Source: an uncultured Bacteroidota bacterium (lineage in GTDB: Bacteria; Bacteroidota; Bacteroidia; Flavobacteriales; Flavobacteriaceae). Taken from it: DNA of 64,000 bases. The translations under genes were made by a program, and so were the position numbers. Positions within the stretch are counted from its first letter, which is position 1. Each line of letters starts with the position of its first letter. Positions 42,803-59,257 of the stretch are shown here, one piece after another. Location: contig CAIMMM010000166.1 in the NCBI GenBank assembly GCA_903842575.1, forward strand, positions 1 through 64,000, read 5' to 3'. Under the pieces are notes generated by a model. That model saw nothing but the letters and a program-made list of their open reading frames with translations. It ran no database searches and was not told where the DNA came from.

Positions 42803-42861
42803 TTTAACTATATGTTTTTGTTAATTAATATTTTATACCATTATAGGTATTAATAAGGCTG

Positions 42862-42891
42862 CAAAGATAGTTCTAAATAAAAAGAACGCAA
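42862..42891 (-). promoter_or_regulatory. Promoter of ettA
   Basis: On the minus strand TTG (42891-42889), 19 nt and TATCTTTG (42869-42862) match the consensus fully. The leader is about 52 nt. Confidence 0.78.
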
Positions 42892-42954
42892 AAGAGGATA
42901 CTGAAATTGTAATTAAAAACACCCCATTATTTAAAGTTGTGAACTTGTTTCCTT

Positions 42955-45672
42955 CTAATTTTTATAACTCCCTTTGCTCTTGCGAATATGTACGGCAACC
43001 ACTTTATATTCGGGACAAAGCGCTTCGCTGTCATGTTCATCGCTAGTAATAATATTTAACATCAAGTCTGGAAAATGGAAAGTGGTGCTCAAAATACCTG
43101 GCTTTACTTCGTCGGTAATTTTCGCTTTTATATCTACTTTTCCTCGAGGAGATGTAACACAAACCATATCACCATTAGTAATAAAGTGTTGTTGTGCATC
43201 GGATGGATGAATTAGCAAGACATCTTCTGTTAGAATTTCTACATTACCCGTTCTTCTAGTCATTGTGCCAGAATTGTAATGTTCTAATTCTCTGTTGGTG
43301 GTGATAATGTATGGAAATTTCGTTTTGTTCTCAACGGTTTCATTCGACTCCTGATAGTCAAAATAATGAAACTTCCCTTTTCCATTTTGGAAAGTTTCTA
43401 GATGCAAAATTTCAGTATCTATCCCACCTGTTTTTACAGGCCATTGCTTACCATTGATTCCTAAATTATCCCATTTTGCACCAGCAAAGAAAGGAACAAT
43501 TTTGGAAATTTCTTCAAGCATCGTGTCTGGTTCAAAAGGCGCTTGGGCATAACCCATTTTATTCATAATATCCACCATAATTTGACCGTCAGATTTTGTG
43601 CCTTCTATTGGTTCTACTACTTTATTCACCCGCTGAATGCGTCTTTCACCATTGGTAAAAGTGCCGCTTTTCTCTAAAAATGAAGCGCCCGGCAAAATAA
43701 CCGTTGCATATTTTGCCGTTTCCGTTATGAATAATTCTTGTAATACAAGTAATTCTAGGTTTTCCATGGCGGCAATTACTTTGTTGGTATTCGGATCGGT
43801 TTGAACAACATCCTCTCCCATCAACCAAAGAGCTTTTAGATTACCATCTATTGCGGAGTCAAACATTTCTGGAATTTTCAATCCTTTTCCTATTGGGATT
43901 TTTCTATCATAAAAAGCCTCATATTGCTTATTAATTTCAGGATCGTAAGCGTTCATGTAACCAGCTCCTTGGTGTGGCTGACACCCCATGTCGGCGGCTC
44001 CTTGCACGTTGTTTTGTCCCCGAAGTGGGTTTACACCAACCCCTTTTCGCCCAATATTCCCAGTAATTAGTGCCAAATCCGAAATAAGCATCACCGTGAA
44101 TGACCCTTGCGAATGTTCGGTAACTCCTAATCCATGGAATGACATTGCGTTAGGCGCTTTGGCATATGCTATGGCAGCGGCTCTAACCAAATTCTTATCC
44201 ACTCCAGTTATTTCTTCTAAATCAGTAATGTTAAGTTTCAAGATTTGATTGCAAAAATCATTGTACCCTTCGGTACGATTTTCTATAAATGATGTATCTT
44301 CCAATCCTTCGGCGATAATGTAATAAAGCATCATGTTCAACAGCGCTACGTTGGTTCCAGGTTTCAATTGAAGATGATAGGTAGCATATTTTGCTATTTC
44401 TATTCTTCTAGGATCAATCACTATAGACACTTTTCCCTTCATAGCAAATTGCTTCAACTTAGCTCCTGTAACAGGATGTGCATCAGTAGGATTAGCGCCG
44501 ATAACTAAAATACAATCGGTATGTTTAATATCTTCAATAGAGTTGGTTGCTGCCCCTGTTCCAAAGGCACGTTGCATTCCAATAGCAGTTGGAGAATGAC
44601 ACACACGGGCACAGCAATCGATGTTATTGGTGCCTATGACGGCACGAATAAATTTTTGCATCAAATAATTTTCTTCGTTGGTGCAACGAGCGGATGAAAT
44701 TCCAGCGATGGCATCAGCCCCATGTTTTTGTTTGATTTCAATAAGTTTGGTAGCAATAAAATCATAAGCTTCATCCCAAGTAGCAGGTTCCAACTGTCCA
44801 TTTCTTCTAATTAGTGGTGTTTTTATTCGGTCTGGATGATTGTAAAAAGAAAAAGCATACCGTCCTTTTAAGCACGTATGACCTTCATTTACTTCCGCAT
44901 TATAGGGTGCTTGAATTGATTTTACTTTCCCGTTCACAACTGCAACTTCTAAATTACAACCCACGCCACAATACGTACAAATGGTTCTCACTTTTTTATC
45001 AGCAACAATTGATTTTGATTCAAAAATATCAGATATAGCGGAGGTTGGACAAGCTTGGGCGCAAGCACCACAACTCACACAATCGGAATCAAAAAAGGTG
45101 CTTTCGAAACTCTTTACAATATGGCTATCAAAACCTCTACCAGCCATACTAAGAACAAATTCACCTTGCACTTCGTCGCAAGCTCTTACGCATCGGAAAC
45201 AATTGATACATTTTGAAAAATCGGAAGTCATGTAGGGATGACTTAAATCTTTGGTTTTGTCAAGATGATTTTTACCTTCTGGATAACGTACATCTCTTAT
45301 GCCTACTCGTGCCGCAACGGTTTGCAACTCACAATTGTTATTGACTTCGCAAGTAAGACAATCCAAAGGATGATCGGTAAGAACCAACTCAACAATATTC
45401 TTACGTAATTTTTTTATTCGATCACTATCGGTATATATATAAGAATTGGGAATCACAGGCGTATGACAAGATGCTTGTGCTTTTGCAACACCATTTTCAA
45501 CCAAAGCAACATCGACACTGCAAACTCTACAGGAACCAAAAGGCTCTAGATTGGGTGCATCACATAAGGTTGGAATCCAATCTTGACCTAAATGTCTTCT
45601 AACAAATTGAAGGATGGTTTCTCCATCTTTGAAAGCGAATTGTTTATCGTTTATATGGGCTACTTGCATCAT
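42955..45672 (-). CDS. fdsA: Molybdenum formate dehydrogenase, catalytic (alpha) subunit
   Basis: The 905-residue protein oxidises formate to CO2 (or the reverse). In order: a NuoG-like 2Fe-2S domain (CRVCSVD and CHTP cysteines), a His-Cys 4Fe-4S segment (HPLDCLTCEVNNNC), two ferredoxin-type clusters (CINCFRCVRAC and CVSCGACAQAC), the 4Fe-4S site CTYCGVGC of the catalytic part, then the bis-MGD molybdopterin domain and a C-terminal molydopterin-binding domain. The molybdenum ligand is cysteine in ARVCHSPT, where E. coli FdhF has selenocysteine. No Tat signal exists, so it is cytoplasmic. It is last in a gene run after fdsB; the accessory fdhD and Moco genes lie upstream. Confidence 0.94.
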   Translation of the reverse strand: MMQVAHINDKQFAFKDGETILQFVRRHLGQDWIPTLCDAPNLEPFGSCRVCSVDVALVENGVAKAQASCHTPVIPNSYIYTDSDRIKKLRKNIVELVLTDHPLDCLTCEVNNNCELQTVAARVGIRDVRYPEGKNHLDKTKDLSHPYMTSDFSKCINCFRCVRACDEVQGEFVLSMAGRGFDSHIVKSFESTFFDSDCVSCGACAQACPTSAISDIFESKSIVADKKVRTICTYCGVGCNLEVAVVNGKVKSIQAPYNAEVNEGHTCLKGRYAFSFYNHPDRIKTPLIRRNGQLEPATWDEAYDFIATKLIEIKQKHGADAIAGISSARCTNEENYLMQKFIRAVIGTNNIDCCARVCHSPTAIGMQRAFGTGAATNSIEDIKHTDCILVIGANPTDAHPVTGAKLKQFAMKGKVSIVIDPRRIEIAKYATYHLQLKPGTNVALLNMMLYYIIAEGLEDTSFIENRTEGYNDFCNQILKLNITDLEEITGVDKNLVRAAAIAYAKAPNAMSFHGLGVTEHSQGSFTVMLISDLALITGNIGRKGVGVNPLRGQNNVQGAADMGCQPHQGAGYMNAYDPEINKQYEAFYDRKIPIGKGLKIPEMFDSAIDGNLKALWLMGEDVVQTDPNTNKVIAAMENLELLVLQELFITETAKYATVILPGASFLEKSGTFTNGERRIQRVNKVVEPIEGTKSDGQIMVDIMNKMGYAQAPFEPDTMLEEISKIVPFFAGAKWDNLGINGKQWPVKTGGIDTEILHLETFQNGKGKFHYFDYQESNETVENKTKFPYIITTNRELEHYNSGTMTRRTGNVEILTEDVLLIHPSDAQQHFITNGDMVCVTSPRGKVDIKAKITDEVKPGILSTTFHFPDLMLNIITSDEHDSEALCPEYKVVAVHIRKSKGSYKN

Positions 45673-45674
45673 AA

Positions 45675-47327
45675 TTATTTTTTAAAATATCCTTCTAATT
45701 CAGTGTCAAAATATTTTAGCGCATTTTTTATAGGTAAGGGTAATCCACCACCTAATGCGCAAAGCGAACCTGTTTCTAATGTTTCTAAAAGGTCATTCAT
45801 TAAAGCTTTGTCTATTTTATAATTTTCATTTTTAGCTTTAGCAATCATCTCATAACCGCGAGTAGAACCAATGCGGCAAGGAAAACATTTTCCACAACTT
45901 TCGTGTGCCGTAAATTGAAATAAATGTTCAATATAATCAATCAAAGGATAAACTGTGGGAATACAAACTATGGAAGCATGACCCAACAAAAATCCTTCTT
46001 TTGCAAAGGAATCATAGTCAATGCTTAAGTTATCTATTTTAGAAATAGGAACCAAGCCACCTAGTGGACCACCAATATGCATGGCTTTTACGGGTTTGCG
46101 AAAACCTCCTCCTAAATCATAGATTACTTTGCTTAAAGGTGTTCCCATATCGACTTCATAAATACCAGGATTGTTAAAATAGCCATCAAGTGAAATGAGC
46201 TTTGTTCCTGTTGATTTTGGTGTACCAATAGCAGCATATGATTTTCCGCTATTTTTTATGATAAATGGGAGGTTTGCCAATGTTTCTACGTTATTAACAA
46301 CCGTTGGTTTATTAAACAATCCTTGTTGGGTAGGATATGGCGGTCGCACTCTCACTTCTGGACGTTGCCCTTCTATAGAAGAAAGTAGAGCAGTTTCTTC
46401 TCCACAAATGTAGGCGCCTTGTGCTTTTATCACTTTGAAATCAAAGGAGAAATTAGAATTTAGGATGTTTTCCCCTAAAAGTTTATTGTTTCTTAAATAG
46501 TCAATCGCTTCGTTTACGATTGCTACCGATTCGGGGTATTCGCCACGGATATAAACGACGCCATGTTGCGCTCCGACAATATAGCCAGAAATCATCATAC
46601 CCATTAACATACTGTGTGGGCGATGCTCCATAATATAGCGGTCGGAATAAGCTCCTGGATCACCTTCGTCGGCATTGCAGACAATAAATTTGGTTTCGTT
46701 AGCTACGTTTTTGCACGATTCTAATTTGAAAGCCATTGAAAACCCTGCACCACCGCGACCTCTCAAACCAGAGTCACGCAATTCAGTCAAAAGGGTATCT
46801 GGTTTTTTTGTTAAACAATCGGTAAAAATTTTATAAAAATTTTCTACATTTCCATAATCACTTGTGAGAATTGGTGTTCCAATAGAAGCCACATTATAGG
46901 TTTCTTTTGAAATGGTATTTTCAGATTTTATTTGAGCAATAGCATCTATATCTTTTCCGGAATAATTTTTATCATTTGTATGAAAGGCGCTATTTTCATG
47001 GCATCTTCCTAAGCAACACATTTCGCCAATTTCTTCTTTTGAGTACTGATTGCTTAATTTTTTATGAACTTCATTTTGAGTTCCGGCTGTCATACAGGCA
47101 CTTCCACTACAAACATATACTTTCTTGCCTCTGTTTTCGGGTTTCAAAAAATCATAAAAAGAAACTGCTCCATAAGCAGTTGATTTTCCAACTAGAAATT
47201 CATTTCTTAGTTTTTCTAGTGCATCAACATCAGGAGTTCCTGTGGCTTTTGCTAAGTTGCCATATTCTTCAAAAAGGTTTTTTGTTAGTCCTTTACGACC
47301 CGATAATTCACTTAAATTTTTTGACAT
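45675..47327 (-). CDS. fdsB: Formate dehydrogenase NAD-linked subunit, NuoE-NuoF fusion
   Basis: The 550-residue protein joins a NuoE-like thioredoxin-fold 2Fe-2S domain (about 1-130; CSGSACMTAG and CCLGRCHENS hold the four cysteines) to a NuoF-like domain (about 180-550). The latter has the FMN/NADH loops GLRGRGGAGF and NADEGDPGAYSDR, and the 4Fe-4S site ESCGKCFPCRIG with a final cysteine in GSLCALGG. It would pass electrons from FdsA to NAD+. In many FDH operons the two parts are separate FdsG and FdsB proteins. The start at 47327 lies 4 nt after fdhD; the frame is open to 47390, which would overlap fdhD. Confidence 0.92.
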   Translation of the reverse strand: MSKNLSELSGRKGLTKNLFEEYGNLAKATGTPDVDALEKLRNEFLVGKSTAYGAVSFYDFLKPENRGKKVYVCSGSACMTAGTQNEVHKKLSNQYSKEEIGEMCCLGRCHENSAFHTNDKNYSGKDIDAIAQIKSENTISKETYNVASIGTPILTSDYGNVENFYKIFTDCLTKKPDTLLTELRDSGLRGRGGAGFSMAFKLESCKNVANETKFIVCNADEGDPGAYSDRYIMEHRPHSMLMGMMISGYIVGAQHGVVYIRGEYPESVAIVNEAIDYLRNNKLLGENILNSNFSFDFKVIKAQGAYICGEETALLSSIEGQRPEVRVRPPYPTQQGLFNKPTVVNNVETLANLPFIIKNSGKSYAAIGTPKSTGTKLISLDGYFNNPGIYEVDMGTPLSKVIYDLGGGFRKPVKAMHIGGPLGGLVPISKIDNLSIDYDSFAKEGFLLGHASIVCIPTVYPLIDYIEHLFQFTAHESCGKCFPCRIGSTRGYEMIAKAKNENYKIDKALMNDLLETLETGSLCALGGGLPLPIKNALKYFDTELEGYFKK

Positions 47328-47331
47328 ACCA

Positions 47332-48162
47332 TTAAAATTTAACCTGACCCGCTGCCCAATTTTGAAAATCATGGGCAACTTGGTTAGCATTGGAGTAAAT
47401 AGTTAATTTATTATTTCTACAAAAAGCCAGTAATGTAATTCCGCTTTGCTCTGCCATATCAACAGCTAGTGTTGAAGGCGCAGATACCGAAGCCAGAAAA
47501 GGGATGCCTGCCTCTTTTGCTTTATTTACAATTTCATAGGAGACACGTCCACTTACAGTCAAACATTTGACTTTATCTAGTGCCTTATTTTGAATCAGGG
47601 AACCAATCACTTTATCTACAGCATTATGCCTTCCAATATCTTCTTGAATTGAAAGCAATTGGCCATCGATAGTAAAAGCGCCAGCAGCATGTGTTCCACC
47701 TGATTGTTGAAATGCTTTTTGTTTTTCGCTGACTTGCTGAAACATTTTTGCAACAAATGAAGGATTAAGTACGGCATCATTTGCTATTTTAATTTCATCA
47801 AAAGTATCCAATTCGGTTTTACCACAAACGCCACAAGACGAGGATGAAATCACATTGCGATTCCCCGAAAAATCCTTTAAAATAAAATGGTTAGGAGTTT
47901 TAACATTTAAGGAATTAATAAAACCTGCTTCATTAATTCCTGTAATTTCAATCTCAAGATTTTCGGGAGCGGTTTGAATTATTTTTTCGGTAAACAATAA
48001 TCCTATTGCCAATTCCTTTTCATTGCCTGGCGTTTGCATGGTAAGTGTAAAAGGAATACTATTGACTGCAATACGCAATGCTACTTCAACGGCTAGAAAA
48101 TCTTCAACAGGTGAAAATTTCTGGTCATTATAAAATAACCCTTTGTATTGTTTTACACTCAT
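47332..48162 (-). CDS. fdhD: Formate dehydrogenase accessory sulfurtransferase
   Basis: FdhD moves sulfur from a cysteine desulfurase to the molybdenum cofactor before it is inserted into formate dehydrogenase. The 276-residue protein contains the catalytic CxxC loop in [13 protein letters not shown] and the conserved blocks [23 protein letters not shown] and [12 protein letters not shown]. It lies between fhs and fdsB with gaps of 5 and 4 nt, clearly in one operon with its client enzyme. Nothing is unusual in length or motif. Confidence 0.95.
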
Positions 48163-48167
48163 AAAAT

Positions 48168-49838
48168 TTAGCTAAGTCCTACAATTTTTCCGTTATTATC
48201 AATATCCATATGTTCTGAGGCAGGAACGGCTGGCAATCCCGGCATACGCATCATGTCGCCCAAAATTGGAATTATAAAACCCGCTCCAGCTGCAAATTCA
48301 AACTCACGAACATTAATAGTAAATCCTTTTGGTCGACCAATTACGGTTTCTTTATCGGATAATGATTTTTGCGTTTTTGCCATGCAAATGGGTAATTTAT
48401 CATAACCTAAATCGGTTATCATTTTTAATTGAGTGTGTGCTTTTGAAGAATATTCAACACCATCAGCACCATAAATTTCGGTAGCAATTCTGTTGATTTT
48501 ATCTTCTACACTCAAACTCCAATCATACAGCGGTTTGAAGTTGTTTTTACCACTTTCTATGACCTCTAAAACCGCTTGCGCTAGTTCTTTCGTTCCTTCT
48601 CCTCCTTTTGCAAAACCATGAGAAACAACAGCTTTCACATTTAACTTAGCACAATGTAATTGCACATAATCTACTTCTTCATCCGAGTCGGTTGGAAAAT
48701 TATTGATAGCTACAACGGGCGTAATTCCAAATTTTTTGCAGTTTTCGATATGTTTTTCAAGATTTTGAAACCCTTTGATAACGCGTTCCATACTTGGTGT
48801 GTTGTATTCTTCTTTTTTAGCACCGCCATGATGGCGCAACGCTCTAATTGTTGCTACTAAAACAATGGCATTGGGAGCAATTCCTGCATAACCACATTTG
48901 ATATTCATGAATTTTTCGGCACCCAAATCGGCTCCAAAACCAGCTTCAGTAACTACAAAATCCCCTAACGACATTCCCATTTTAGTGGCTAAAATAGTAT
49001 TGGTACCTTGAGCAATATTAGCAAAAGGACCTCCGTGTAAAATGGCAGGATTTCCTTCTAATGTTTGTACCAAATTAGGTTTAATAGCATCTTTCAATAA
49101 AAGTGCCATCGCCCCTTGAGCCTTCAAATCACGTGCGTAAATGGCTTTTTTATCAAAAGTAAATCCGACGAAAATATTACCTAATCTTACTTTTAAATCA
49201 TCAATATCTTTCGACATACAAAGAATAGCCATTACTTCAGAAGCAGGTGTAATATTGAAACCGTCTTCACGAGGTATGCCATTAGTAGTTCCGCCAATAC
49301 CTATAATAATTTGGCGCAAAGCACGGTCGTTCATATCCATAACCCTTTTCCACTTGATGGTTCTTGGGTCAATGTTTAAATTATTTTGCTTGTTTTGTAA
49401 GTTGTTATCGATGAGTGCGGCTAAAAGATTGTTGGCTTTTTCAATGGCACTAAAATCACCTGTAAAATGCAGATTAATATCTTCCATTGGGATAACTTGG
49501 GAGTAGCCTCCACCGGCAGCGCCTCCTTTTATTCCGAAAACGGGACCCAGTGAAGGTTCACGCAAAACCACTATCGATTTTTTCCCAATTTTATTTAGGC
49601 CTTCATTTAAACCAATAGAAACAGTAGTTTTTCCTTCGCCAGCAGGAGTGGGATTTATAGCGGTAACCAATATCAGTTTGCTTTTTTTGATTTTTTGTTC
49701 ATCAATTAGATGTAACGGAAGTTTTGCTTTATATTTTCCATAATATTCTAAATCGTCTTCGTGAATATCTATTTTACTTGCAATATGTTTGATGTGGCTA
49801 ATTTCAGCTTTTTGGGCAATGTCTAAATCGGATAGCAT
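48168..49838 (-). CDS. fhs: Formate-tetrahydrofolate ligase
   Basis: The enzyme makes 10-formyl-THF from formate, THF and ATP. The 556-residue protein is full length, with the nucleotide-binding loop [29 protein letters not shown] and the conserved [10 protein letters not shown] and [14 protein letters not shown] blocks. Its place directly before fdhD and the formate dehydrogenase genes links folate charging of formate with its oxidation; this is functionally sensible but not seen in every organism with fhs. A promoter candidate lies at 49882-49914. The product may feed purine synthesis or, through other folate enzymes, serine. Confidence 0.96.
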
Positions 49839-49881
49839 ATTTTTTTATTTATAAAGTTCTTTTCTTGCTTTAGTGAAGTTA

Positions 49882-49914
49882 TAAATGTAGAAAAAAATAT
49901 AGGACTTAATCAAA
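49882..49914 (-). promoter_or_regulatory. Candidate promoter of the fhs-fdhD-fdsB-fdsA unit
   Basis: On the minus strand TTTG (49914-49911), 21 nt and TACATTTA (49889-49882) fit the consensus with one mismatch in the -7 box. It lies in the only gap above 100 nt in the cluster, so the formate genes may be transcribed separately from the Moco genes. Confidence 0.4.
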
Positions 49915-49978
49915 AAAATCAAATGTTATTTTCTAAGCGTTCTTATTTATATCCTAAACTTTTACAATCAGTAATTTT

Positions 49979-50890
49979 CTATTCGTGTTGTTTCCCTTCA
50001 ACAACTCTAAAAACATGTAAGAGTGAAGGAAATAAAGCGTCCATTGACTCTTGTGCTCCTTTGGTCGAACCTGGCAATGTCATCAAAAGAGTTTTACCTT
50101 TCATTCCAGCAATGCCTCGTGATAACATTGAGAAGGGGGTTCTGTCTTGTCCGTAATTGCGTGCAGCTTCCATAATACCGGGAATTTCTCTATCCAAAAG
50201 CGGTTTTATGGCTTCGGGTGAATTATCCCTTGGGGAGAGTCCTGTGCCACCCGTTAAAATAATTAAGTCGAAATTTTTAGCATATAAATCCAAAACTTTT
50301 TCTTGTATTCCTAAGATATCGTCTGAAATTACGGAGTAATCGGCGATGTCAATTTGGCAAGATGCTAATTTTTGGATAATCATTTTTCCTGCTTTATCCA
50401 TTTTTTTGCCGGCAGAAACACTATCTGAACACACAATTACGGCCGCTTTTAAATCGGCACGGAATTTATCTGTAAAATCGGATTTTCCGCCTTTTTTTTC
50501 CAACAATTTGATAGAATGAATTTCAATTCCTTTATCAATAGGTTTTAGCATGTCATACATTGTTAACGCAACAACCGATGCGCCATGCATTGCTTCCACC
50601 TCAACACCTGTTTTATAAATGGTATGTACTTCCATTTCGATGGTGATTTCTAACTCATTTATAGCATAACGAACTGCTGTAAATTCAACAGGAATAGGAT
50701 GACAATCTGGAATGATGTCACTCGTTCGCTTCACTGCAAAGAGTCCTGCCGTTTTTGCCATTTCAAAAACATCCCCCTTAGGAACCGTTTTGTTTACTAT
50801 GGCAGCTATGGTTTCTTTTTTACTGACTTTTAAAATTGCTTGAGCCTTTGCTGTGCGAAGGGTACTTAATTTGGATGTTATATCTACCAT
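49979..50890 (-). CDS. moaCB: Fused MoaC-MoaB/MogA molybdenum cofactor protein
   Basis: The 303-residue protein has two parts. Residues 1 to about 148 are MoaC, cyclic pyranopterin monophosphate synthase, with [24 protein letters not shown] and the lysines in KKGGKSD. From about 150 on it is a MoaB/MogA-type molybdopterin adenylyltransferase domain with [39 protein letters not shown]. The fusion puts an early and a late step of cofactor synthesis in one chain; MoeA and MoaA genes are further up in the cluster. It is followed by a 140-nt gap before fhs. Confidence 0.93.
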
Positions 50891-50924
50891 TTTTGAATTT
50901 TAAATTTATGAAATAGTTTCTTAA

Positions 50925-51368
50925 TTATACATTTTCTTTCCAAGCAAAAGAGTCATCTTCAAAGATTTCTTTCCCCCAGATGGGTGTCATCGCCTTTATT
51001 TGCTCCACAATTTCTTGACACGCATTAAATACTTCTTTGCGGTGTTTTGAAGAAACAAAAACAAACAAGCAAACTTCTCCCGCCTTTACTACTCCAAGAC
51101 TATGATAAATGTGCATGCACACTAAATTATATTTAGCAAACGCCGCTTCTCGTATCTCGTGAAAAAGTTCTTCAGCCATTTCTTGATAGGCAGCATATTC
51201 AATGGCTACCACTATTTTTTTGTCAATTATATCGTTTCGCACTTGTCCTAAAAAAATATCGTGTGCGCCAATATCAGTTTTTAAACTATGTTTGGCAATA
51301 CTATTGGCAATAAAATCTGGCGTTATTGGGCCATTGACAAAAACGGTATGCTTTTTTTTCTCTGCCAT
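50925..51368 (-). CDS. moaE: Molybdopterin synthase catalytic subunit
   Basis: MoaE pairs with MoaD to place two sulfurs on precursor Z, making molybdopterin. The 147-residue protein has family blocks FLGQVRND, AIEYAAYQEMAEE, HSLGVVKAGE, SSKHRKEVFNACQEIVEQIK and the substrate-site lysine in MTPIWGKEIFEDDS. It lies 12 nt after moeB and 34 nt before moaCB in the cluster. Its partner moaD is two genes upstream. The N-terminal basic stretch AEKKKHTVFVNGP is slightly longer than in E. coli MoaE. Confidence 0.94.
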   Translation of the reverse strand: MAEKKKHTVFVNGPITPDFIANSIAKHSLKTDIGAHDIFLGQVRNDIIDKKIVVAIEYAAYQEMAEELFHEIREAAFAKYNLVCMHIYHSLGVVKAGEVCLFVFVSSKHRKEVFNACQEIVEQIKAMTPIWGKEIFEDDSFAWKENV

Positions 51369-51380
51369 AATTAGTTGTGT

Positions 51381-52496
51381 TTAATAATGATTATTTTTCC
51401 AAGCTTCAATGCCTCCAGCTAAACTATAGGCTTGACAATTAGGAAATATCTCTTTTAATATTTTTACAGCTTGCATGCTGCGTTGCCCTGATTTACAATA
51501 AATTACAACCTTATTTTCAATCGGAATGGTTGAAGCTAAACTTTCAAATTCATGTAACGGAATAAATATAAAGGGAAATTCGTCCACAGAAGGAAGCTCC
51601 CCTTTTTCACGAACGTCAACAATTGTAATTGTTTCAAGGCTTCTTAAAACGTCAAATTCTAGAACCGAAAGTACTTCAATATTTAAATTTTTGTTGCAAA
51701 ACCATTCATAATCATATGCTAAAAATGCTATTTTGTTTTTTGGAAAATCGATTGATTTGTCTGATTTCACATCCATTTCGAAAGCATAAAATGAATTTTC
51801 TAAAGCATTGTAGCACATTATTTTATTAGACAATGGTTTTCCAATTCCCGTAATAATTTTTATAGTTTCAATTGCTTGCATGGTTCCAATAATTCCAGGA
51901 ATCACACCTAAAACGCCAACATCATTGCAAGATAAAGTTGAATCCGAAGGTGGCTCTGGAAATAAATCACGGTAATTGGTTTTGATATTGGACTGATTAT
52001 CAGTAAGATTAAAAACACCAATTTGTCCTTCGAAACGCAGGACAGCGCCATATATTAGCGGCTTTTCTAATAATACGCAAGCGTCATTAACGAGATAGCG
52101 GGTGGCAAAATTATCCGATCCATCGATGACAATATCATATTTCGCTAGAATCTCAAGAGCGTTATTATTCGTGATTTGAAAATTATAGGGTAGAATTGAT
52201 ATGTTTGGATTAAGAGTTTTTAATCTTTTAGCGGCAGTAATGGCTTTTGATTTACCTATATCATCCACGGTATAAAGTATTTGACGTTGCAGATTTGACA
52301 TTTCTACTACATCAAAATCGGCAATTCCAATTGTACCTACTCCAACTGCGGCAAGGTATTGCAGAGCAGGACAACCCAAACCGCCAGCGCCTATGACCAG
52401 TACGCTAGACTGCGCTATCTTGTCTTGACCAACGTGCCCAAACTCCTTGAGCTGTATTTGTCTTTGGTATCGATTATTTGTATTATCTGAATTCAT
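51381..52496 (-). CDS. moeB: MoeB-type adenylyltransferase with rhodanese domain
   Basis: The protein (371 residues) adenylates the C-terminal glycine of MoaD and its C-terminal rhodanese domain (about 280-371, active cysteine in VIYCKSGQRS) can then deliver sulfur to form the thiocarboxylate, as MoeZ and Uba4 do. The ATP-binding motif VIGAGGLGCPALQYLA, DFDVVEMSNLQRQ and the catalytic aspartate in DGSDNFATRY are present. Oddly the zinc-binding cysteines are missing: where relatives have CYRCLFPEPP this one has NYRDLFPEPP, and no second CxxC occurs near residue 240. It lies between moaD and moaE in the cluster. Confidence 0.92.
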   Translation of the reverse strand: MNSDNTNNRYQRQIQLKEFGHVGQDKIAQSSVLVIGAGGLGCPALQYLAAVGVGTIGIADFDVVEMSNLQRQILYTVDDIGKSKAITAAKRLKTLNPNISILPYNFQITNNNALEILAKYDIVIDGSDNFATRYLVNDACVLLEKPLIYGAVLRFEGQIGVFNLTDNQSNIKTNYRDLFPEPPSDSTLSCNDVGVLGVIPGIIGTMQAIETIKIITGIGKPLSNKIMCYNALENSFYAFEMDVKSDKSIDFPKNKIAFLAYDYEWFCNKNLNIEVLSVLEFDVLRSLETITIVDVREKGELPSVDEFPFIFIPLHEFESLASTIPIENKVVIYCKSGQRSMQAVKILKEIFPNCQAYSLAGGIEAWKNNHY

Positions 52497-52503
52497 ATTT
52501 CAT

Positions 52504-52737
52504 TTAACCTCCTGAAAATGGTGGAAGTAGCGCTATTGTGTCATTCTGATGGAGCATTGTATTCTCTTGTATCACTTTTTTGTTTACGGCAATAGAAAAA
52601 TTAATTTTGGATAATTCAGGGAATTCTACTTCCAAGTATTTTATTAACGCATCTGTATTTTCTATTACTGACATTTTCCAATCCGATTTACCTGTAATAT
52701 AGGCAATTTGTCCAAAAGCAAGTAGGTTTATTTCCAT
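52504..52737 (-). CDS. moaD: Molybdopterin synthase sulfur-carrier subunit
   Basis: The 77-residue protein has the ubiquitin-like MoaD fold and ends in the essential double glycine (PPFSGG), the site of thiocarboxylation by MoeB-rhodanese. Residues ALLPPFSGG fit the family pattern near the C-terminus. Its stop is 7 nt from the start of moeB and its start 1 nt after the stop of mobA, so translation is coupled. Its partner is MoaE. Confidence 0.94.
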   Translation of the reverse strand: MEINLLAFGQIAYITGKSDWKMSVIENTDALIKYLEVEFPELSKINFSIAVNKKVIQENTMLHQNDTIALLPPFSGG

Positions 52738-52738
52738 T

Positions 52739-53326
52739 TTAAATTAAGTTAAAAATATTTTTAAAGTCCTCTTTTGTATTGATATTCTTGAAAATGGATT
52801 CTTTAAAGATATTGTTATTTTCTACGGGAATTGTTTTTAGTTTGAAATGCTTCGCCATTTCCATTAATTTAATATTTTTTTGCTCAATAAGTTCCAACCA
52901 AATTTTCAAGCAATCTTTTGCATAAATGCCAAATAATGGTTCGAATTTTTCTTGGTGGACAGGAAGCACAATTTGCGATTCATCGGTATTTCTACAAATA
53001 TACACGATAGCTTCTTTAGTTATAAATGGCATATCGCAGCTCACAATAAAATTAAATTTAGCATCCGAATGATTCAAAGCAGTGTAAATTCCGCCTGCAG
53101 GTCCTATATTTTTAATCAAATCTGGAATCACTTCCAATCCAAATTTTTCATATTCGGGATTGTTGGAAACAATAAACAAGTTACTAAAAAGAGGTTGCAT
53201 TTTTTCGATTACATATTGCACCATTGCTTTTCCTTCGATGAGCATTAGTCCCTTATCTTCACCCATTCTTGCGCTGTTTCCGCCTGCTAGAATATATCCA
53301 TTTGTATTTTTTATTTCGGCTTCCAT
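52739..53326 (-). CDS. mobA: Molybdenum cofactor guanylyltransferase
   Basis: MobA adds GMP to Mo-molybdopterin, giving the bis-MGD form used by formate dehydrogenase of this type. The 195-residue nucleotidyltransferase-fold protein carries the GTP-binding loop GGNSARMGEDKG near the N-terminus, and SCDMPFI (D-x-P metal site) further on. Its presence agrees with FdsA needing bis-MGD. It is next to moaD, with a 1-nt gap, and a TauE/SafE gene directly precedes it. Confidence 0.92.
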   Translation of the reverse strand: MEAEIKNTNGYILAGGNSARMGEDKGLMLIEGKAMVQYVIEKMQPLFSNLFIVSNNPEYEKFGLEVIPDLIKNIGPAGGIYTALNHSDAKFNFIVSCDMPFITKEAIVYICRNTDESQIVLPVHQEKFEPLFGIYAKDCLKIWLELIEQKNIKLMEMAKHFKLKTIPVENNNIFKESIFKNINTKEDFKNIFNLI

Positions 53327-53329
53327 AAT

Positions 53330-54061
53330 TTAAGTAATAATTAGTTTTATGGAAGCAATAAACAAAACAATGGCCAATAATTTGTTTAGAAATTCACTTT
53401 TAAATTTATTGGCTCCTAAATAGGAACCCATAATTCCACCTAATAATGCAAGGAGTATCATCCAGCTCATTTCGGATTTAAATTCAAGACCTTGGGCAAA
53501 AAGACCTGCTAATCCAGCTAATGAATTTACAAAAATAAATAATGCAGAAACCGCGGCTGTTTTTTTTATCTTAGCCCAATGCAGCAATAAAATGAGTGGG
53601 CTTAAAATAATGCCTCCGCCTATTCCTATCATTCCTGAAAAAAAGCCAATGACTGCACCAATTATTAGGGCTAGGAAAATATTTTGTTTTACTTCAATGG
53701 TTGTCATTTTAATTTTAAATCCTAATAAATTAAGTACCGAAAAGAGTAAAAGTATGGCGAGTATTTTTTTATATAAACCGCCATCAATAGCAATCATCCC
53801 GCCAATAAATGCCGCAGGAAAAGAAGTAATAGCAAAAGGCCAGAACAAATTCCATTTAAAATGTCCTCCTCTATAATATTGAATAAAAGCTATTAAAGAA
53901 ACAAAAACATTGAGCAATAAAGCTGTTGGACGCATGGTTTCGGGAGCAAAAGAAAAGAATGCCATCAATGCCAAATACCCGCTAGCACCACCGTGGCCAA
54001 CTGATGCATACAAAAATGCAACTAGCACTAACAATACATAAAATATTATTATTGAATCCAT
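53330..54061 (-). CDS. TauE/SafE-family membrane transporter inside the Moco cluster
   Basis: The 243-residue membrane protein has about eight hydrophobic segments and the typical repeated motif SVGHGGASGYLA near the N-terminus and GMIGIGGGIILSP in the middle, which mark TauE/SafE (PF01925). Known members export sulfite or sulfoacetate and similar anions. Here it lies between moeA and mobA with gaps of 6 and 3 nt, so it is made together with molybdenum cofactor enzymes. Its cargo could be sulfite, molybdate, formate or another anion; the location alone does not decide. There is no ModABC or FocA gene in the window. Confidence 0.85.
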   Translation of the reverse strand: MDSIIIFYVLLVLVAFLYASVGHGGASGYLALMAFFSFAPETMRPTALLLNVFVSLIAFIQYYRGGHFKWNLFWPFAITSFPAAFIGGMIAIDGGLYKKILAILLLFSVLNLLGFKIKMTTIEVKQNIFLALIIGAVIGFFSGMIGIGGGIILSPLILLLHWAKIKKTAAVSALFIFVNSLAGLAGLFAQGLEFKSEMSWMILLALLGGIMGSYLGANKFKSEFLNKLLAIVLFIASIKLIIT

Positions 54062-54067
54062 TGCTTA

Positions 54068-55243
54068 TTAAATAATCATACTACAATTTACTAAGTCTCC
54101 TTTTTTAAAAATTTCCTTATTTTCTTCCAATTCCACCAAGCAATCTGCTACTGCAAAAGAATTGAGCTTGTAGCTTTCTTGATTGTCTAACAAAACTACT
54201 GCATTTTCATGTGTTTTTCCTTTAAGAAAATGGGTAAGTCCTGCTTTTTTATTAAAATCAAAAGCCAATGGAAGTTGCATTTTATTGAAATATTTTTTTT
54301 GAGTAAAGTTGCTGATAGCCAGTACAACATATTCATAAAAACAACTCATTGCTGCAGCAGGATTACCCGGCAAGGCAAATATGAGTGTGTGGTCTTTTTT
54401 TCCAAAATAAAATGGTTTTCCGGGTTTCTGTTTTATTGTATGAAATATTTTTTGCACCCCACATTTTTCTAATGAAGCGGGGACTAAATCATAATCGCCT
54501 ACTGATACTCCACCAGTTAGAATTAGAATATTGGAACTTAATTGATTGGATATAGCCCTTTCTATTTCAACTTCGGTATCATCAACCACCTCAACAGAAA
54601 CTGGGAAAATATCTAATTGGTGTAATGCTGCTATCAAACCAATAGAATTGGATTCAAATATCTTTCCTTTGGTAATATTACTATCTGCTTTTATGAGTTC
54701 TTTACCGGTTACAATAATACTAATTGTTGGTTTTGAATATACTTTAACCTCATTGATACCAATTCCTGCTAAAAAAGAAATGGCAACAGGTGTCAGCAAC
54801 TGTCCTGTCTGCAAAGCGATGTCTCCTTTTTTAGTTTGGGACCCTTTCTCACGAACATTTGTTCCTCTTACAAGAAAAGCATCTTGAACTTGAATAGTAT
54901 TGCCGTTTTTAATAATTTTTTCCTGCATAACAACCGTATCAGCTCCAGGCGGTGTAGGAGCTCCTGTATAAATACGAACGGTTTCGTTTGACAATATTGG
55001 ACTATCGGAATAAGTGCCTGTTTGGATTTCACCAATTACAGTTAAATTGCTTTTTTTATCCCATTTTTCATAAGAAAAAGCATAACCATCCATAGCAGAT
55101 TGATCAAAAGGAGGCGTATCAATTACCGCGTAAATAGGTGCTGCCAAAATGCTTCCATTGGCTTCTAACAATGTGGAAGTTTTTACTTTTAATGCAGCGC
55201 AGTTTTCATTGATTAGTTGTTTTGCCTCTGTAACATTTATCAT
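54068..55243 (-). CDS. moeA: Molybdopterin molybdotransferase
   Basis: MoeA inserts molybdate into adenylated molybdopterin. The 391-residue protein shows the usual domain order, with DTPPFDQSAMDGYAF near the N-terminus, RIYTGAPTPPGADTVVMQE, the molybdate/nucleotide-binding loop TGGVSVGDYDLVP and KPGKPFYFGKKDHTLIFALPGNPAAAMSCF. The substrate for it is made by the MogA-like half of moaCB. It lies between moaA (31 nt upstream) and the TauE/SafE gene. Family length and motifs give no surprise. Confidence 0.95.
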   Translation of the reverse strand: MINVTEAKQLINENCAALKVKTSTLLEANGSILAAPIYAVIDTPPFDQSAMDGYAFSYEKWDKKSNLTVIGEIQTGTYSDSPILSNETVRIYTGAPTPPGADTVVMQEKIIKNGNTIQVQDAFLVRGTNVREKGSQTKKGDIALQTGQLLTPVAISFLAGIGINEVKVYSKPTISIIVTGKELIKADSNITKGKIFESNSIGLIAALHQLDIFPVSVEVVDDTEVEIERAISNQLSSNILILTGGVSVGDYDLVPASLEKCGVQKIFHTIKQKPGKPFYFGKKDHTLIFALPGNPAAAMSCFYEYVVLAISNFTQKKYFNKMQLPLAFDFNKKAGLTHFLKGKTHENAVVLLDNQESYKLNSFAVADCLVELEENKEIFKKGDLVNCSMII

Positions 55244-55274
55244 TTTAATGCTTATTTTCTATATACCAAAAGAA

Positions 55275-56255
55275 CTATCCTCCTATGTTTATCATACTTC
55301 TATTGACAATTTTTGTGGCGTCTATCTTTTTATAATCTCCTTCAAACTGCCCTCCCAATGATTCCGCTTTAGTCGCCAAACATTGTTGGATGAGCGGAAC
55401 AATATCTTCTGAATTTCTTAATGCTGTTAAAATATCTGCTTCCCCTTTTGAAAACAAACAATTTTTCATTTTGCCATCTGCTGTCAATCGCATTCGGTTA
55501 CAGTTACTGCAAAAAGGAGCACTCATTGTACTAATAACTGCAAAAGTACCTTTGTAATCAAGGGGCTTGAATTTTTTTGCCGTTTCGTTTAGCGTATCTT
55601 TCATTCTGATGAAACTATATTTAGATGCTGCCACATCTAAAATCTCTTGATAAGTAAATACTTTTTGTGTGTGCCATTGGTTTCCTTTAAAAGGCATAAA
55701 CTCTATAAATCTCACATGAACGGGTTGGTTTTTTGTCCATTCAATAAAATCAAGAATTTCATCATCATTAACACCACGCATTATAACCGTATTTATTTTT
55801 ACGTGAAATTCTTGGTCAATAAGTTGCTGTATGTTGCTCCATACTTTTTCAAAAACATTGCGTTTAGTTATACTGAAAAATTTATCATTGTCAAGTGTGT
55901 CAAGGCTTACATTTATAGATTTTATCCCAGCTTTTTTAAAAATAGGAATAAATTCATTTGTTCTTAATCCGTTTGTTGTTAAAGTAAGTTCGATAGGATA
56001 TTTTGAAAGTGCTAATAGGATTTTTTCGGCATCTTTCCTCACCAAAGGTTCTCCTCCTGTAAGCCGTATTTTTTTGACCCCCATTTTCACAAATTCGCGA
56101 GCAATAGTATCTATTTCCTCAACCGACATCAAATTGGAGGAAGGCATAAAAGAAGCATTTTCATCTGGAATGCAATACTGACATCTGAAATTGCAAACAT
56201 CCGTGAGCGAAATACGAAGGTAATCGTGTACCCGTCCAAAATTATCTTTTAGCAT
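55275..56255 (-). CDS. moaA: GTP 3',8-cyclase, radical SAM enzyme
   Basis: MoaA performs the first step of molybdenum cofactor synthesis, converting GTP to 3',8-cH2GTP with radical SAM chemistry. The 326-residue protein has the SAM cluster motif CNFRCQYC near residue 17-24, LTGGEPLVRKD, and the second 4Fe-4S site near the C-terminus in FCSNCNRMRLTADGKMKNC. It ends with a double glycine (NIGG), important for activity in known MoaA. It is the first gene of the minus-strand cluster, with a 154-nt upstream gap that contains a hairpin. Confidence 0.95.
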   Translation of the reverse strand: MLKDNFGRVHDYLRISLTDVCNFRCQYCIPDENASFMPSSNLMSVEEIDTIAREFVKMGVKKIRLTGGEPLVRKDAEKILLALSKYPIELTLTTNGLRTNEFIPIFKKAGIKSINVSLDTLDNDKFFSITKRNVFEKVWSNIQQLIDQEFHVKINTVIMRGVNDDEILDFIEWTKNQPVHVRFIEFMPFKGNQWHTQKVFTYQEILDVAASKYSFIRMKDTLNETAKKFKPLDYKGTFAVISTMSAPFCSNCNRMRLTADGKMKNCLFSKGEADILTALRNSEDIVPLIQQCLATKAESLGGQFEGDYKKIDATKIVNRSMINIGG

Positions 56256-56310
56256 AATCTTTTTTTTCTGATTTTAATCTTCATTGGATTATGAACTTTT
56301 ATAAATTTAC

Positions 56311-56348
56311 TTATTCCATGGTCCAAACCTTTCATCAGTTCATGGATT
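56311..56348 (-). promoter_or_regulatory. Hairpin in the moaA leader region
   Basis: On the minus strand ATCCATG and CATGGAAT enclose a 20-nt loop that itself can form a small GGT/ACC stem. It lies 56-93 nt before the moaA start. It could be a regulatory leader, but it does not match the Moco riboswitch core I know of and the stem is short. Confidence 0.3.
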
Positions 56349-56409
56349 ATTTTGTTGTTAAATAGTTCTAATTGAAAATAAATGTTTTATTTTTTTTTTT
56401 AAATTTGAT

Positions 56410-56592
56410 TTACAATCGTCCTTTAAGCGAGCTAAACACCCATGCATTAGCTAAAAAACCTAAGCCCGTTGCTGCAAAACCCCAACCTGCGGTTTCATCA
56501 TAGCGGAAAGCACCTAAAGCAATTAGCAATAACCCCATGATAATCATTAGTAAAACGGCCCATCCTAAAACAGTATTTTTATTCATTCCCAT
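56410..56592 (-). CDS. Small two-helix membrane protein (60 residues)
   Basis: The protein starts MGMNKNTVLGWAVLLMI and has two hydrophobic helices (about 9-28 and 37-54) separated by the polar turn RYDETAGWG, ending in a basic tail SSLKGRL. It resembles short conserved flavobacterial membrane proteins (I recall a family named after a Gramella gene, CAL67264), but I cannot verify that. It lies between holA and moaA on the same strand, with 85-nt and 154-nt gaps, so it is likely its own unit. No function is known to me. Confidence 0.65.
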   Translation of the reverse strand: MGMNKNTVLGWAVLLMIIMGLLLIALGAFRYDETAGWGFAATGLGFLANAWVFSSLKGRL

Positions 56593-56677
56593 ATTTTGTG
56601 TTATTAAATTTTAATCCCAATTCTCAATTTTGAAAACGGGGAAACAAATGTCGTGAATTTAAATTAAGTGAAAATGA

Positions 56678-57682
56678 TTAATTAAAAATTCCCACCAACA
56701 TTTCTTTAAATAAATCATGACTTGGTAATGCATTGGCACCAACTCCTTTACTCTTCACATCAATAGAACGCATAGTCGTAACTATTTGGCTTACTTTTTT
56801 CATTGGGTAATTTTTCAGAGCAAGATCGTAATCTTTTAAAAAATAGGGATTCACACCCAAAACAGACGCCACATTCTTGGGGTTTTTATCTTTTAAACCG
56901 TGGTATTTTAAAAGTTTGACAAAAAAACCAAAAACCGTGCTTGTTGTAACTATTATTGGGTTTGCCTTTTCGTTTTCTGAAAAATATTGAACAATTTGGT
57001 AGGCTTTTAATTGGTTTTTAGAACCTAAAGCATTTAGTAATTCGAAGTTATTAAAGTCTTTACTAAAACCAATATTCTCTTCTATATGTTTGGCAGCAAT
57101 TGCACTTCCTTTGGGTAAAATAATCTGCAATTTTTCAAGTTCATTATTAATTTTACTCAGATCATTTCCTAGAAACTCTACCAACATTGCGTTGGCTTTA
57201 GGTTCTATAGTATATCCTTTTCCTTGTAAAACACGAGTTATCCATTGCCCAACTTGATTCTCGTATAATTTTTTACTTTCAAAAACAACCCCGATTTTAT
57301 CTATTAATTTCACTAATTTCTTGCGCTTGTCAAGTGTTTTGTATTTATAACAAATTACCAAAACAGTTGATAACATTGGATTTGAAACATATTTTTCTAA
57401 ATCATCAATGGTCTTGGCTAAATCTTGCGCTTCTTTCACAATCACCACTTGACGTTCGGCCATCATTGGATAACGCATAGCCGTTGAAGCGATATCTTCA
57501 ATGGCTACATCTCGACCGTATAAAACGGTTTGATTAAATGCTTTTTCATCTTGAGTTAAAATAGTATCTTCAATATATTCCGATAATTTATCAATATAAT
57601 AGGGTTCTTCCCCCATCAAAAAATAAATAGGCTTTATGTTTCCTGATTTTATATCGTTTATTATTTTTAGTATTTCGTCCAT
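56678..57682 (-). CDS. holA: DNA polymerase III subunit delta
   Basis: The delta subunit opens the sliding clamp within the clamp loader. The 334-residue protein has the AAA+-like fold of HolA (PF06144) with its N-terminal block PIYFLMGEEPYYIDKLSEYIE, a middle stretch with MRYPMMAERQVVIVKEAQDL and a C-terminal helical collar. Clamp-loader delta has no working Walker A, and none is seen. The divergent gene at 57733 encodes an HsdR-N-like nuclease-fold protein, with 50 nt between the starts. I could not find a clear promoter for holA in that gap. Confidence 0.92.
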   Translation of the reverse strand: MDEILKIINDIKSGNIKPIYFLMGEEPYYIDKLSEYIEDTILTQDEKAFNQTVLYGRDVAIEDIASTAMRYPMMAERQVVIVKEAQDLAKTIDDLEKYVSNPMLSTVLVICYKYKTLDKRKKLVKLIDKIGVVFESKKLYENQVGQWITRVLQGKGYTIEPKANAMLVEFLGNDLSKINNELEKLQIILPKGSAIAAKHIEENIGFSKDFNNFELLNALGSKNQLKAYQIVQYFSENEKANPIIVTTSTVFGFFVKLLKYHGLKDKNPKNVASVLGVNPYFLKDYDLALKNYPMKKVSQIVTTMRSIDVKSKGVGANALPSHDLFKEMLVGIFN

Positions 57683-57720
57683 TATTATTTTGAAATTTAC
57701 GAATTTTCAATTTTTCAATT

Positions 57721-57728
57721 TATATTTG
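57721..57728 (+). promoter_or_regulatory. -7 box immediately before the HsdR-N-like gene
   Basis: TATATTTG matches TAnnTTTG and is followed after CTTC by the ATG at 57733. The transcript should start at or within a few bases of the ATG, as for psuK. Confidence 0.55.
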
Positions 57729-57732
57729 CTTC

Positions 57733-58179
57733 ATGCAACAACTCAATTTTCCAACTTATTCCTTTCGCTTCAAAAATAGTGAAAATAAAGTGGCAATCTT
57801 TGATGAAATCAGGAAAAAATTTATCATCCTCACACCCGAAGAATGGGTACGTCAGAATACCATTCAATTCCTATTGCAACATAAAAAATACCCGAAATCC
57901 TACCTCAACGTTGAGAAATTAATAAAAATAAATGACTTAAGTAAACGTTACGACATCATTGTTTTTCAACCTAATGGAGCAATATTTCTTTTAATTGAAT
58001 GTAAAGCACCGGAAGTTCCTGTCACACAAAATACTTTTGACCAAATTGCTCGATATAATCTTACTCTAAAGGCTGAATACCTTATGGTAACCAATGGACT
58101 TAATCATTACTTTTGTCAAATGGATTTTGAAAAAGAGAAATATATTTTTCTAGATGAACTCCCTGAATTTAGTAAATAG
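57733..58179 (+). CDS. HsdR N-terminal-domain-like protein (PD-(D/E)xK fold)
   Basis: The 148-residue protein corresponds to the type I restriction enzyme R-subunit N-terminal domain alone (HSDR_N_2, PF13588). The nuclease core reads RYDIIVF, then LLIECKAP, giving the D and ExK residues of the PD-(D/E)xK site, so it could be active. There is no HsdM or HsdS and no helicase domain, so it is not a restriction system. It is followed with no gap by a glycosyltransferase gene and is divergent from holA. Its role is unknown; a DNA repair or replication role is a guess from context. Confidence 0.82.
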   Translation: MQQLNFPTYSFRFKNSENKVAIFDEIRKKFIILTPEEWVRQNTIQFLLQHKKYPKSYLNVEKLIKINDLSKRYDIIVFQPNGAIFLLIECKAPEVPVTQNTFDQIARYNLTLKAEYLMVTNGLNHYFCQMDFEKEKYIFLDELPEFSK

Positions 58180-59181
58180 ATGATGGATAAAAAAATTGCA
58201 GTTGTAATATTAAATTGGAATGGAGCAAAATTGTTAGAACAATTTTTGCCTTCCGTTGTGGCATATTCAAATGATGCCTCTATATATCTTGTAGATAATG
58301 CCTCTACCGATAATTCCATTAATGTAATTCAATCCAAATTTCCAACGGTAAAAATTATTCAAAATACCAATAATTTTGGTTTTGCCAAAGGTTATAATGA
58401 AGCATTACAACAAGTTGAAGAAGAATATTATGCCTTAATAAATTCAGATATTGAAGTTACTCAAAATTGGCTTACTCCTATCCTATCCATCTTTGAAAAA
58501 GAACCCAACACTGGCATTATTCAACCCAAAATTTTAGATTACAAGAACAAGGATTATTTTGAATATGCTGGAGCAGCTGGCGGTTTTATTGATAAATATG
58601 GTTATCCCTATTGTCGCGGACGACTTTTTGAAACCCTAGAAAAAGACAATAATCAATATAATGATGCATGTGACATATTTTGGGCTTCAGGTGCCTGTTT
58701 CTTCATTAGAAAAGAAATTTACAGAAAACTCGACGGCTTTGATGATGATTTTTTTGCCCATCAAGAAGAAGTTGATTTATGTTGGCGAGCGTTTAATTTG
58801 GGTTACAAAGCAAAATACACTTCGAAATCTACCGTGTTTCATGTTGGTGGCGCTACCTTAAACGAAAGTAATCCAAAAAAGACTTTCTTGAACTTCAGAA
58901 ACTCCTTATTGATGCTTGTAAAGAATTTACCCAAGAATAAACTTTTCCAAATCCTATTCATAAGACTCCTGTTGGATGGTATTGCGGGAATTCATTTTAT
59001 TTTTCAAGGGAAATTTAAACATTGCTTTGCCATTGTAAAAGCACATTTTTATTTTTACCATTTGATTTCTAGAAACTTAAAGAAAAGAAGCGATTTCCAA
59101 TCTAATAAATACTATAAAGCAGATAGTATTGTGCTTCAATATTATGTTAAGAACGGCAAGGTATTTGAAAACGGAAATTAA
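58180..59181 (+). CDS. Family 2 glycosyltransferase
   Basis: The 333-residue protein is a GT2-type glycosyltransferase with an N-terminal GT-A domain (about 1-230): VVILNWNGAKLL, DNASTDNS, NNFGFAKGYNEAL, the metal-binding INSDIEV and the later block DDDFFAHQEEVDLCWRA typical of rhamnosyltransferase-like enzymes. The last 90 residues include hydrophobic stretches that may touch the membrane. It probably adds sugars to surface polysaccharide or glycolipid. Its ATG directly follows the stop codon of the HsdR-N-like gene, so the two share an mRNA. No other polysaccharide genes lie near. Confidence 0.9.
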   Translation: MMDKKIAVVILNWNGAKLLEQFLPSVVAYSNDASIYLVDNASTDNSINVIQSKFPTVKIIQNTNNFGFAKGYNEALQQVEEEYYALINSDIEVTQNWLTPILSIFEKEPNTGIIQPKILDYKNKDYFEYAGAAGGFIDKYGYPYCRGRLFETLEKDNNQYNDACDIFWASGACFFIRKEIYRKLDGFDDDFFAHQEEVDLCWRAFNLGYKAKYTSKSTVFHVGGATLNESNPKKTFLNFRNSLLMLVKNLPKNKLFQILFIRLLLDGIAGIHFIFQGKFKHCFAIVKAHFYFYHLISRNLKKRSDFQSNKYYKADSIVLQYYVKNGKVFENGN

Positions 59182-59227
59182 CAATAGTTTATGTACATAT
59201 AAGACTATTAGTAACTAAAATAATTTG

Positions 59228-59235
59228 TAATTTTG
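59228..59235 (+). promoter_or_regulatory. -7 box of the OmpA lipoprotein gene
   Basis: TAATTTTG matches TAnnTTTG, 22 nt before the ATG. No TTG at the usual distance. Confidence 0.45.
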
Positions 59236-59257
59236 TCAAAAATTTAATCATTTATCC

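Follow-up and report, generated by a model that had tools for sequence, protein, structure and literature searches.

A TauE/SafE permease of the molybdenum cofactor operon as a predicted one-protein molybdate importer in Bacteroidota

The gene at positions 53330..54061 (minus strand) of the window, that is, of the whole 64,000-nucleotide stretch of Bacteroidota DNA that was analysed, encodes a TauE/SafE (TSUP) permease of 243 aa which, judged from sequence, very probably imports molybdate, and perhaps also tungstate, as a one-protein carrier in place of ModABC. This reading was preferred because nearly all genomes with molybdenum cofactor (Moco) synthesis carry a member of the same TauE clade, ModB or a MOT1-like protein, and rarely more than one of them. 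A single-polypeptide TSUP secondary carrier would thus bring molybdate (perhaps tungstate too) across the inner membrane and supply MoeA, encoded by the adjoining gene, taking over the ModABC job in a genome without ModABC. Transport would be directed inwards, a prediction of the same standing as that of the substrate, and would probably be coupled to an ion gradient, since no ATPase gene accompanies tauE. An oxyanion importer in the TauE family is credible, as a Pseudomonas TauE homologue imports sulfate, a molybdate analogue (PMC11535334). While the TSUP family is known, the assignment of molybdate as substrate, and of a function replacing ModABC, appears to be new: no earlier proposal of a TauE-type molybdate carrier was found in a search of open-access papers, bioRxiv not included, and an earlier proposal elsewhere is possible.

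The gene, its operon and its genome

The ORF begins with ATG, and its product matches PF01925 (TauE) at an E value of 1e-34; the score is 120.7 bits, the cut-off being 32.6, and no other Pfam family was found at E<=0.001. The match lies above the gathering score and covers nearly the full length (residues 10-240 of 243), which places the protein in the TSUP family. On the minus strand, the run of genes opens with moaA (55275..56255; TIGR02666, 343.8 bits, above cut-off) and moeA, for molybdenum insertion (54068..55243; MoeA_N, MoCF_biosynth and MoeA_C), followed by tauE and by the gene of a mobA-like NTP transferase (52739..53326; PF12804, 124.5 bits). There follow a moaD-like ORF of 77 aa with a GG end (52504..52737; called as an ORF, with matching small ORFs in relatives), moeB with a C-terminal rhodanese domain (51381..52496; ThiF and Rhodanese), moaE (50925..51368; PF02391) and a moaC-moaB fusion (49979..50890; NF002947, 398.5 bits, above cut-off). 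The last part comprises the genes of formate-tetrahydrofolate ligase, FTHFS (48168..49838; profile match), and of the formate dehydrogenase accessory protein, fdhD (47332..48162; TIGR00129, 168.2 bits, above cut-off), an fdhB-like ORF (45675..47390; named from reading the ORF only) and fdhA, for the formate dehydrogenase alpha subunit (42955..45672; TIGR01591, 799.5 bits, above cut-off), a molybdenum enzyme whose gene closes the run that holds tauE. The FTHFS gene thus lies inside the formate dehydrogenase and Moco run, with fdhD and moaC-moaB on either side, and ties formate to C1 metabolism. The ORF coordinates bear out the earlier note, tauE being flanked by moeA, 6 nt away, and by mobA, 3 nt away. 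In the region 42000-60000 no Rfam match, either to the Moco riboswitch or to any other RNA, was obtained at gathering thresholds, and no ModE-type gene was seen in the operon.

The genome is 95.6% complete, in 178 contigs. The lack of ModABC and FocA, pointed out before for the window, extends to the whole genome, where no match was found for ModB (E<=0.001), ModA (E<=1e-10) or FocA (E<=1e-10). Neither was MOT1 (PF16983) found at E<=1e-15, the weak matches reaching at most 25.4 bits for a cut-off of 30. The protein itself does not match PF16983 at E<=0.001 and so is not a MOT1 protein; nor does it belong to ModABC, as it matches PF01925 only and stands in a genome without ModB or ModA matches. 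Three more PF01925 proteins are encoded elsewhere in the genome, none of them with a Moco gene in the surrounding stretches (L199-L201).

Clade, motifs and predicted structure

In an even draw of genomes across the phylum, homologues fell into a main clade, at 200 bits or more, and a sister clade, at 154-185 bits; among the ORFs fetched, the bands were at least 234 bits for the main clade, 154-185 for the sister clade and at most 83 for other TauE proteins. A tree of 86 rows, built without the two characterised proteins (the sulfite exporter TauE and TK06_RS10770), sets the main and sister clades together apart from other TauE with a support of 99/99, and supports the sister clade with 95/73, some long branches leaving the details unsure. 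Support for the main clade by itself is modest (70/60), which counts against the molybdate reading. As ModB is lacking in 16 of the 17 sister-clade genomes, this clade was counted in, and the survey totals given below take both clades together.

The motif [VI]GH[GA]GASGY occurs in 132 of 133 distinct main-clade ORFs, and VG[FLM]GGGSSY in 15 of 17 sister-clade ORFs. In the window protein, alignment, model and motif count place the main-clade signature, VGHGGASGY, at a helix break (residues 21-29; codons 53975..54001, minus strand), while its counterpart in the second half, the glycine motif GIGGG, comprises residues 146-150 (codons 53612..53626, minus strand; alignment and model). The structure model (mean pLDDT 84.5) consists of five plus five helices, interrupted at VGHGGASG and at GIGGG; the predicted structure thus has the two repeated halves, with a glycine-rich motif in both, that characterise TSUP membrane proteins. 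H23, K98 and K166 are invariant in 15 aligned sequences; they may bind the anion, and would form an oxyanion site together with the two glycine motifs. No solved relative was found by sequence at E<=1, and a fold search with Foldseek gave no match at E<=0.001, the top match being BacA (E 0.03) and the YeeE thiosulfate carrier reaching an E of 1.1 only.

Linkage to Moco genes in other genomes

A set of 60 near-relative genomes, counting the window's own, contains 16 with a close homologue (identity 48% or higher, E<1e-60); all 16 have MoaA and none has ModB above cut-off. MoaA occurs in 19 of the 60 (18 above cut-off, plus a partial one in G031) and ModB above cut-off in two (G015 and G038); the three MoaA genomes that are not carriers are these two, with ModB, and G059 (83% complete), with neither. 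In the 41 relatives without MoaA no close homologue was found, a weaker TauE match being present in 30. The gene is close to Moco genes in 14 of the 16 carriers and between moeA and mobA in 11 of them (own genome included in both counts; in G030 some 5 kb off moeA). In G003, G052 and G053 it is on the side of moeA, mobA being at another site, undetected or past the contig end; G005 and G031 have it outside the Moco cluster. Two of the checks that the earlier note had proposed, the conservation of the gene beside moeA/mobA and the lack of modABC in carriers, turned out in favour of molybdate import, and the opposite genomic outcome, a modABC set elsewhere with no synteny in relatives, was looked into and is not what the genomes contain. 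As for the relatives without a close homologue, moeA directly adjoins mobA in G015, with modABC elsewhere (L054); a ModE-type gene lies between moeA and mobA in G059, and a ModE-type gene plus one further gene in G038.

Beyond the near relatives, the best 80 named loci of at least 290 confirmed were considered; 74 of these 80 are presumably from Bacteroidota, judged from organism names. At least one of moaA, moeA, mobA, moaC and moaE lies within about 8 kb in 71 of these best 80, and none of the five in 9, a count that holds in part by construction, since the search patterns included the main-clade motif; the genomes of the phylum draw were not motif-chosen. A Moco gene is found within 1.5 kb of 110 of 133 main-clade ORFs, 7 of 17 sister-clade ORFs and 2 of 18 other TauE ORFs. 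As members of the clade sit by Moco genes in many distant genomes, the placement in the Moco operon is more than chance. Against the molybdate reading, 12 of 13 main-clade genes selected for being distant from MoaA or on another contig have no Moco gene in the fetched stretch (the exception being G091), and only 8 of the 17 sister-clade genes have one there.

Two further features of these loci were observed. In L037:9017-9814, L040:8410-9198, L042:11116-11907 and L044:8567-9352 a methyltransferase-like gene, which from reading is taken to encode uroporphyrinogen-III C-methyltransferase, separates mobA from moaD; the window lacks such a gene there. In addition, a second, unrelated TauE paralogue lies near the clade member in Mangrovimonas and G103 (L158:4792-5583 and L183:7091-7888).

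Of 133 main-clade ORFs, 28 have a ModE-type gene within 1.5 kb, as against none of the sister-clade (0/17) or other TauE ORFs (0/18). The four ModE-type proteins scanned (109-124 aa) consist of the DNA-binding part only and score 77-87 bits, below the TIGR00637 cut-off of 98.5, and this also weighs against the reading. In the two genomes of the window's genus where tauE is away from the Moco cluster, G005 and G031, the copies group with those of Spirosoma and Emticicia (100/99), which fits replacement by a foreign copy; moeA and mobA are closed up in G005. It looks as if the operon TauE was lost and a Spirosoma-like copy gained, presumably in that direction and order. A porin-like gene precedes TauE in both (L046:7457-10157 and L048:1524-3421; Alginate_exp match from G005), with a ModE-type gene ahead of it in G005 (L046) and none seen in L048; the link between porin and TauE, coming from two genomes, is weak.

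Exclusion among molybdenum importers across the phylum

The draw comprised 345 genomes, and the thresholds were E<=1e-30 for the TauE clade (profile A1), 1e-50 for MoaA, 1e-30 for ModB and 1e-15 for MOT1-like proteins, the first three having been fixed before the counts and the last after the first MOT1 matches. The TauE clade was found in 68 genomes, MoaA in 198, ModB in 134 (114 above the curated cut-off) and MOT1-like proteins in 17. Within the 198 MoaA genomes, 66 have the TauE clade only, 106 ModB only and 14 a MOT1-like protein only, so that exactly one importer kind is present in 186, as compared with a mean of 98.8 (SD 6.7, maximum 123) in 5000 shuffles. With the main clade alone, the same genomes comprise 50 with TauE only, 107 with ModB only, 14 with a MOT1-like protein only, 2 with ModB and MOT1-like and 25 with none. 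Two sets of MoaA genomes speak against the molybdate reading: nine with none of the three importers (G120, G124, G132, G205, G209, G228, G245, G292, G350) and three with two kinds, namely ModB plus MOT1-like in G070 and G074 and TauE plus ModB in G236, where TauE is of the sister clade and far from moaA. In the 147 genomes without MoaA the TauE clade was found once, ModB 25 times and a MOT1-like protein once, and the near-absence of the clade there argues that molybdate is the selected substrate. The single case, G346, where the 5.9-kb contig stops just past the gene, and the 25 ModB genomes without MoaA also stand against the reading.

Since shuffles ignore relatedness, the comparison was also made within families. 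Seven families contain TauE genomes as well as ModB genomes, and in none of them do the two occur in one genome; the counts of TauE to ModB are 23/4 in f1, 1/3 in f17, 5/1 in f18, 2/2 in f19, 7/1 in f22, 4/3 in f37 (plus one genome with neither) and 5/3 in f43. Multiplied together, the chances come to 6.3e-11 (1.4e-5 for the main clade alone), values which treat the genomes of a family as independent and are uncorrected for the selection of these families. A TauE genome (G138) and a ModB genome (G195) share a genus, and in the window's genus many TauE carriers are found alongside G015, G227 and G259 with ModB. Importer swaps thus recur within seven families, that of the window included.

Moreover, a search for ModA (E<=1e-10) failed to find it in 75 of 76 carriers, the exception being G236, which has ModB too, but found it in all 4 ModB controls. 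A MOT1-like gene occurs in 14 of the 23 MoaA genomes that have neither the TauE clade nor ModB, whereas the 68 TauE-clade genomes of the draw are without one. With ModA absent from carriers and MOT1-like genes filling gaps, molybdate supply is therefore the factor common to all three groups. As an observation on the MOT1-like genes themselves (loci L164-L167), which stand in for ModABC and the TauE clade in those 14 genomes, they lie by coordinates within about 100 bases of moaA in G182, G190, G197, G328 and G336. Bacterial MOT1 is not listed in the table of a published survey, though PF16983 proteins of sulfate reducers have been noted in another paper (PMC5840216).

Alternative explanations

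Four other readings of the gene were rejected on the strength of the few carriers with formate dehydrogenase, of moeB-rhodanese occurring without TauE in G015 and G038, and of the exclusion tied to MoaA. Sulfate resembles molybdate as an anion, and the sulfate importer of E. coli (cysA) can carry molybdate. Import of sulfate by the window protein, or a broad oxyanion carrier with molybdate as a mere side substrate, is highly unlikely: sulfur is required by every organism, whereas the clade is practically confined to MoaA genomes, where it swaps with molybdenum importers. What favours it are the import of sulfate by a TauE homologue in E. coli and the similarity of both anions, as given in PMC11535334 and PMC5840216, respectively.

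A carrier of formate, nitrate or nitrite for a molybdoenzyme encoded nearby would suit the formate dehydrogenase at the end of the window run, the lack of FocA in this genome (its absence from the window had led the earlier note to suggest a possible formate role) and the related molybdoenzyme genes near by in many relatives. However, just 11 of 80 carriers have a formate dehydrogenase scoring above the family cut-off, and in 35 of the 80 nothing matches even at E<=1e-120, so that the linked enzyme varies while tauE stays with the Moco genes. FocA is missing in 48 of 50 carriers but also in 10 of 10 ModB genomes; being so rare (2 of 60 genomes, both carriers; E<=1e-10), its absence carries no information. 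Such a role gives no reason to exclude ModABC either, and can be given very little credence.

Equally little can be given to the export of sulfite, or another sulfur anion, arising from sulfur handling by MoeB-rhodanese, MoaD and MoaE, which agrees with the family name, with the moeB-rhodanese gene of the operon and with the sulfite exporter role given for a Cupriavidus TauE (as cited in PMC3597751). Genomic context speaks against this as the main role, as G015 and G038 retain moeB-rhodanese yet have ModABC and no such TauE, and exclusion with ModABC and MOT1-like carriers is not predicted by it. An operon passenger without any molybdenum-related role is the least credible of all, since, despite the relatives where tauE lies away from Moco genes, its presence even there tracks MoaA and excludes ModB, and other TauE ORFs are seldom beside a Moco gene (2/18 vs 110/133). 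In summary, of the three roles offered beforehand, molybdate import is upheld by synteny, exclusion and ModE-type neighbours, while formate transport and sulfite removal are not supported.

Significance and comparison with known systems

The clade probably represents an additional class of molybdate importers in bacteria. Consisting of one TSUP protein, repeatedly swapped with ModABC and MOT1-like proteins, and accompanied in part by a ModE-type regulator and in two genomes by a porin-like gene, this importer would provide molybdenum to a large share of the Bacteroidota without ModABC. It is a concrete one-gene candidate for molybdenum import; if confirmed, the sulfite exporter annotation would be corrected in many genomes, and a route of molybdenum entry named for many Bacteroidota that use nitrate and formate. 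A further one-protein route is suggested by the MOT1-like genes found next to moaA in this phylum.

With the TauE/SafE proteins (TSUP, PF01925) the window protein shares the family by profile, a model of two five-helix halves and, by prediction, oxyanion transport. Unlike the sulfite exporter TauE and the sulfate importer TK06_RS10770, it belongs to a clade with VGH[GA]GASGY, tied to Moco genes and with molybdate as the predicted substrate. The best fold match, the undecaprenyl pyrophosphate phosphatase BacA/UppP (Z 10.6, rmsd 4.5 over 229 residues), spans nearly the whole model, so that TSUP carriers and this phosphatase may share a fold; nevertheless, BacA/UppP is an enzyme, identity is 10%, and mostly helical models can reach such a Z without kinship. 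ModABC is alike in predicted substrate and genomic role, and is mutually exclusive with the TauE clade, whereas the window protein is of an unrelated family and consists of one protein, with no ATPase and no binding protein. Finally, MOT1 (PF16983) is also a one-protein carrier, with the same predicted substrate and likewise mutually exclusive with the TauE clade; the window protein differs from MOT1 in matching PF01925 only.
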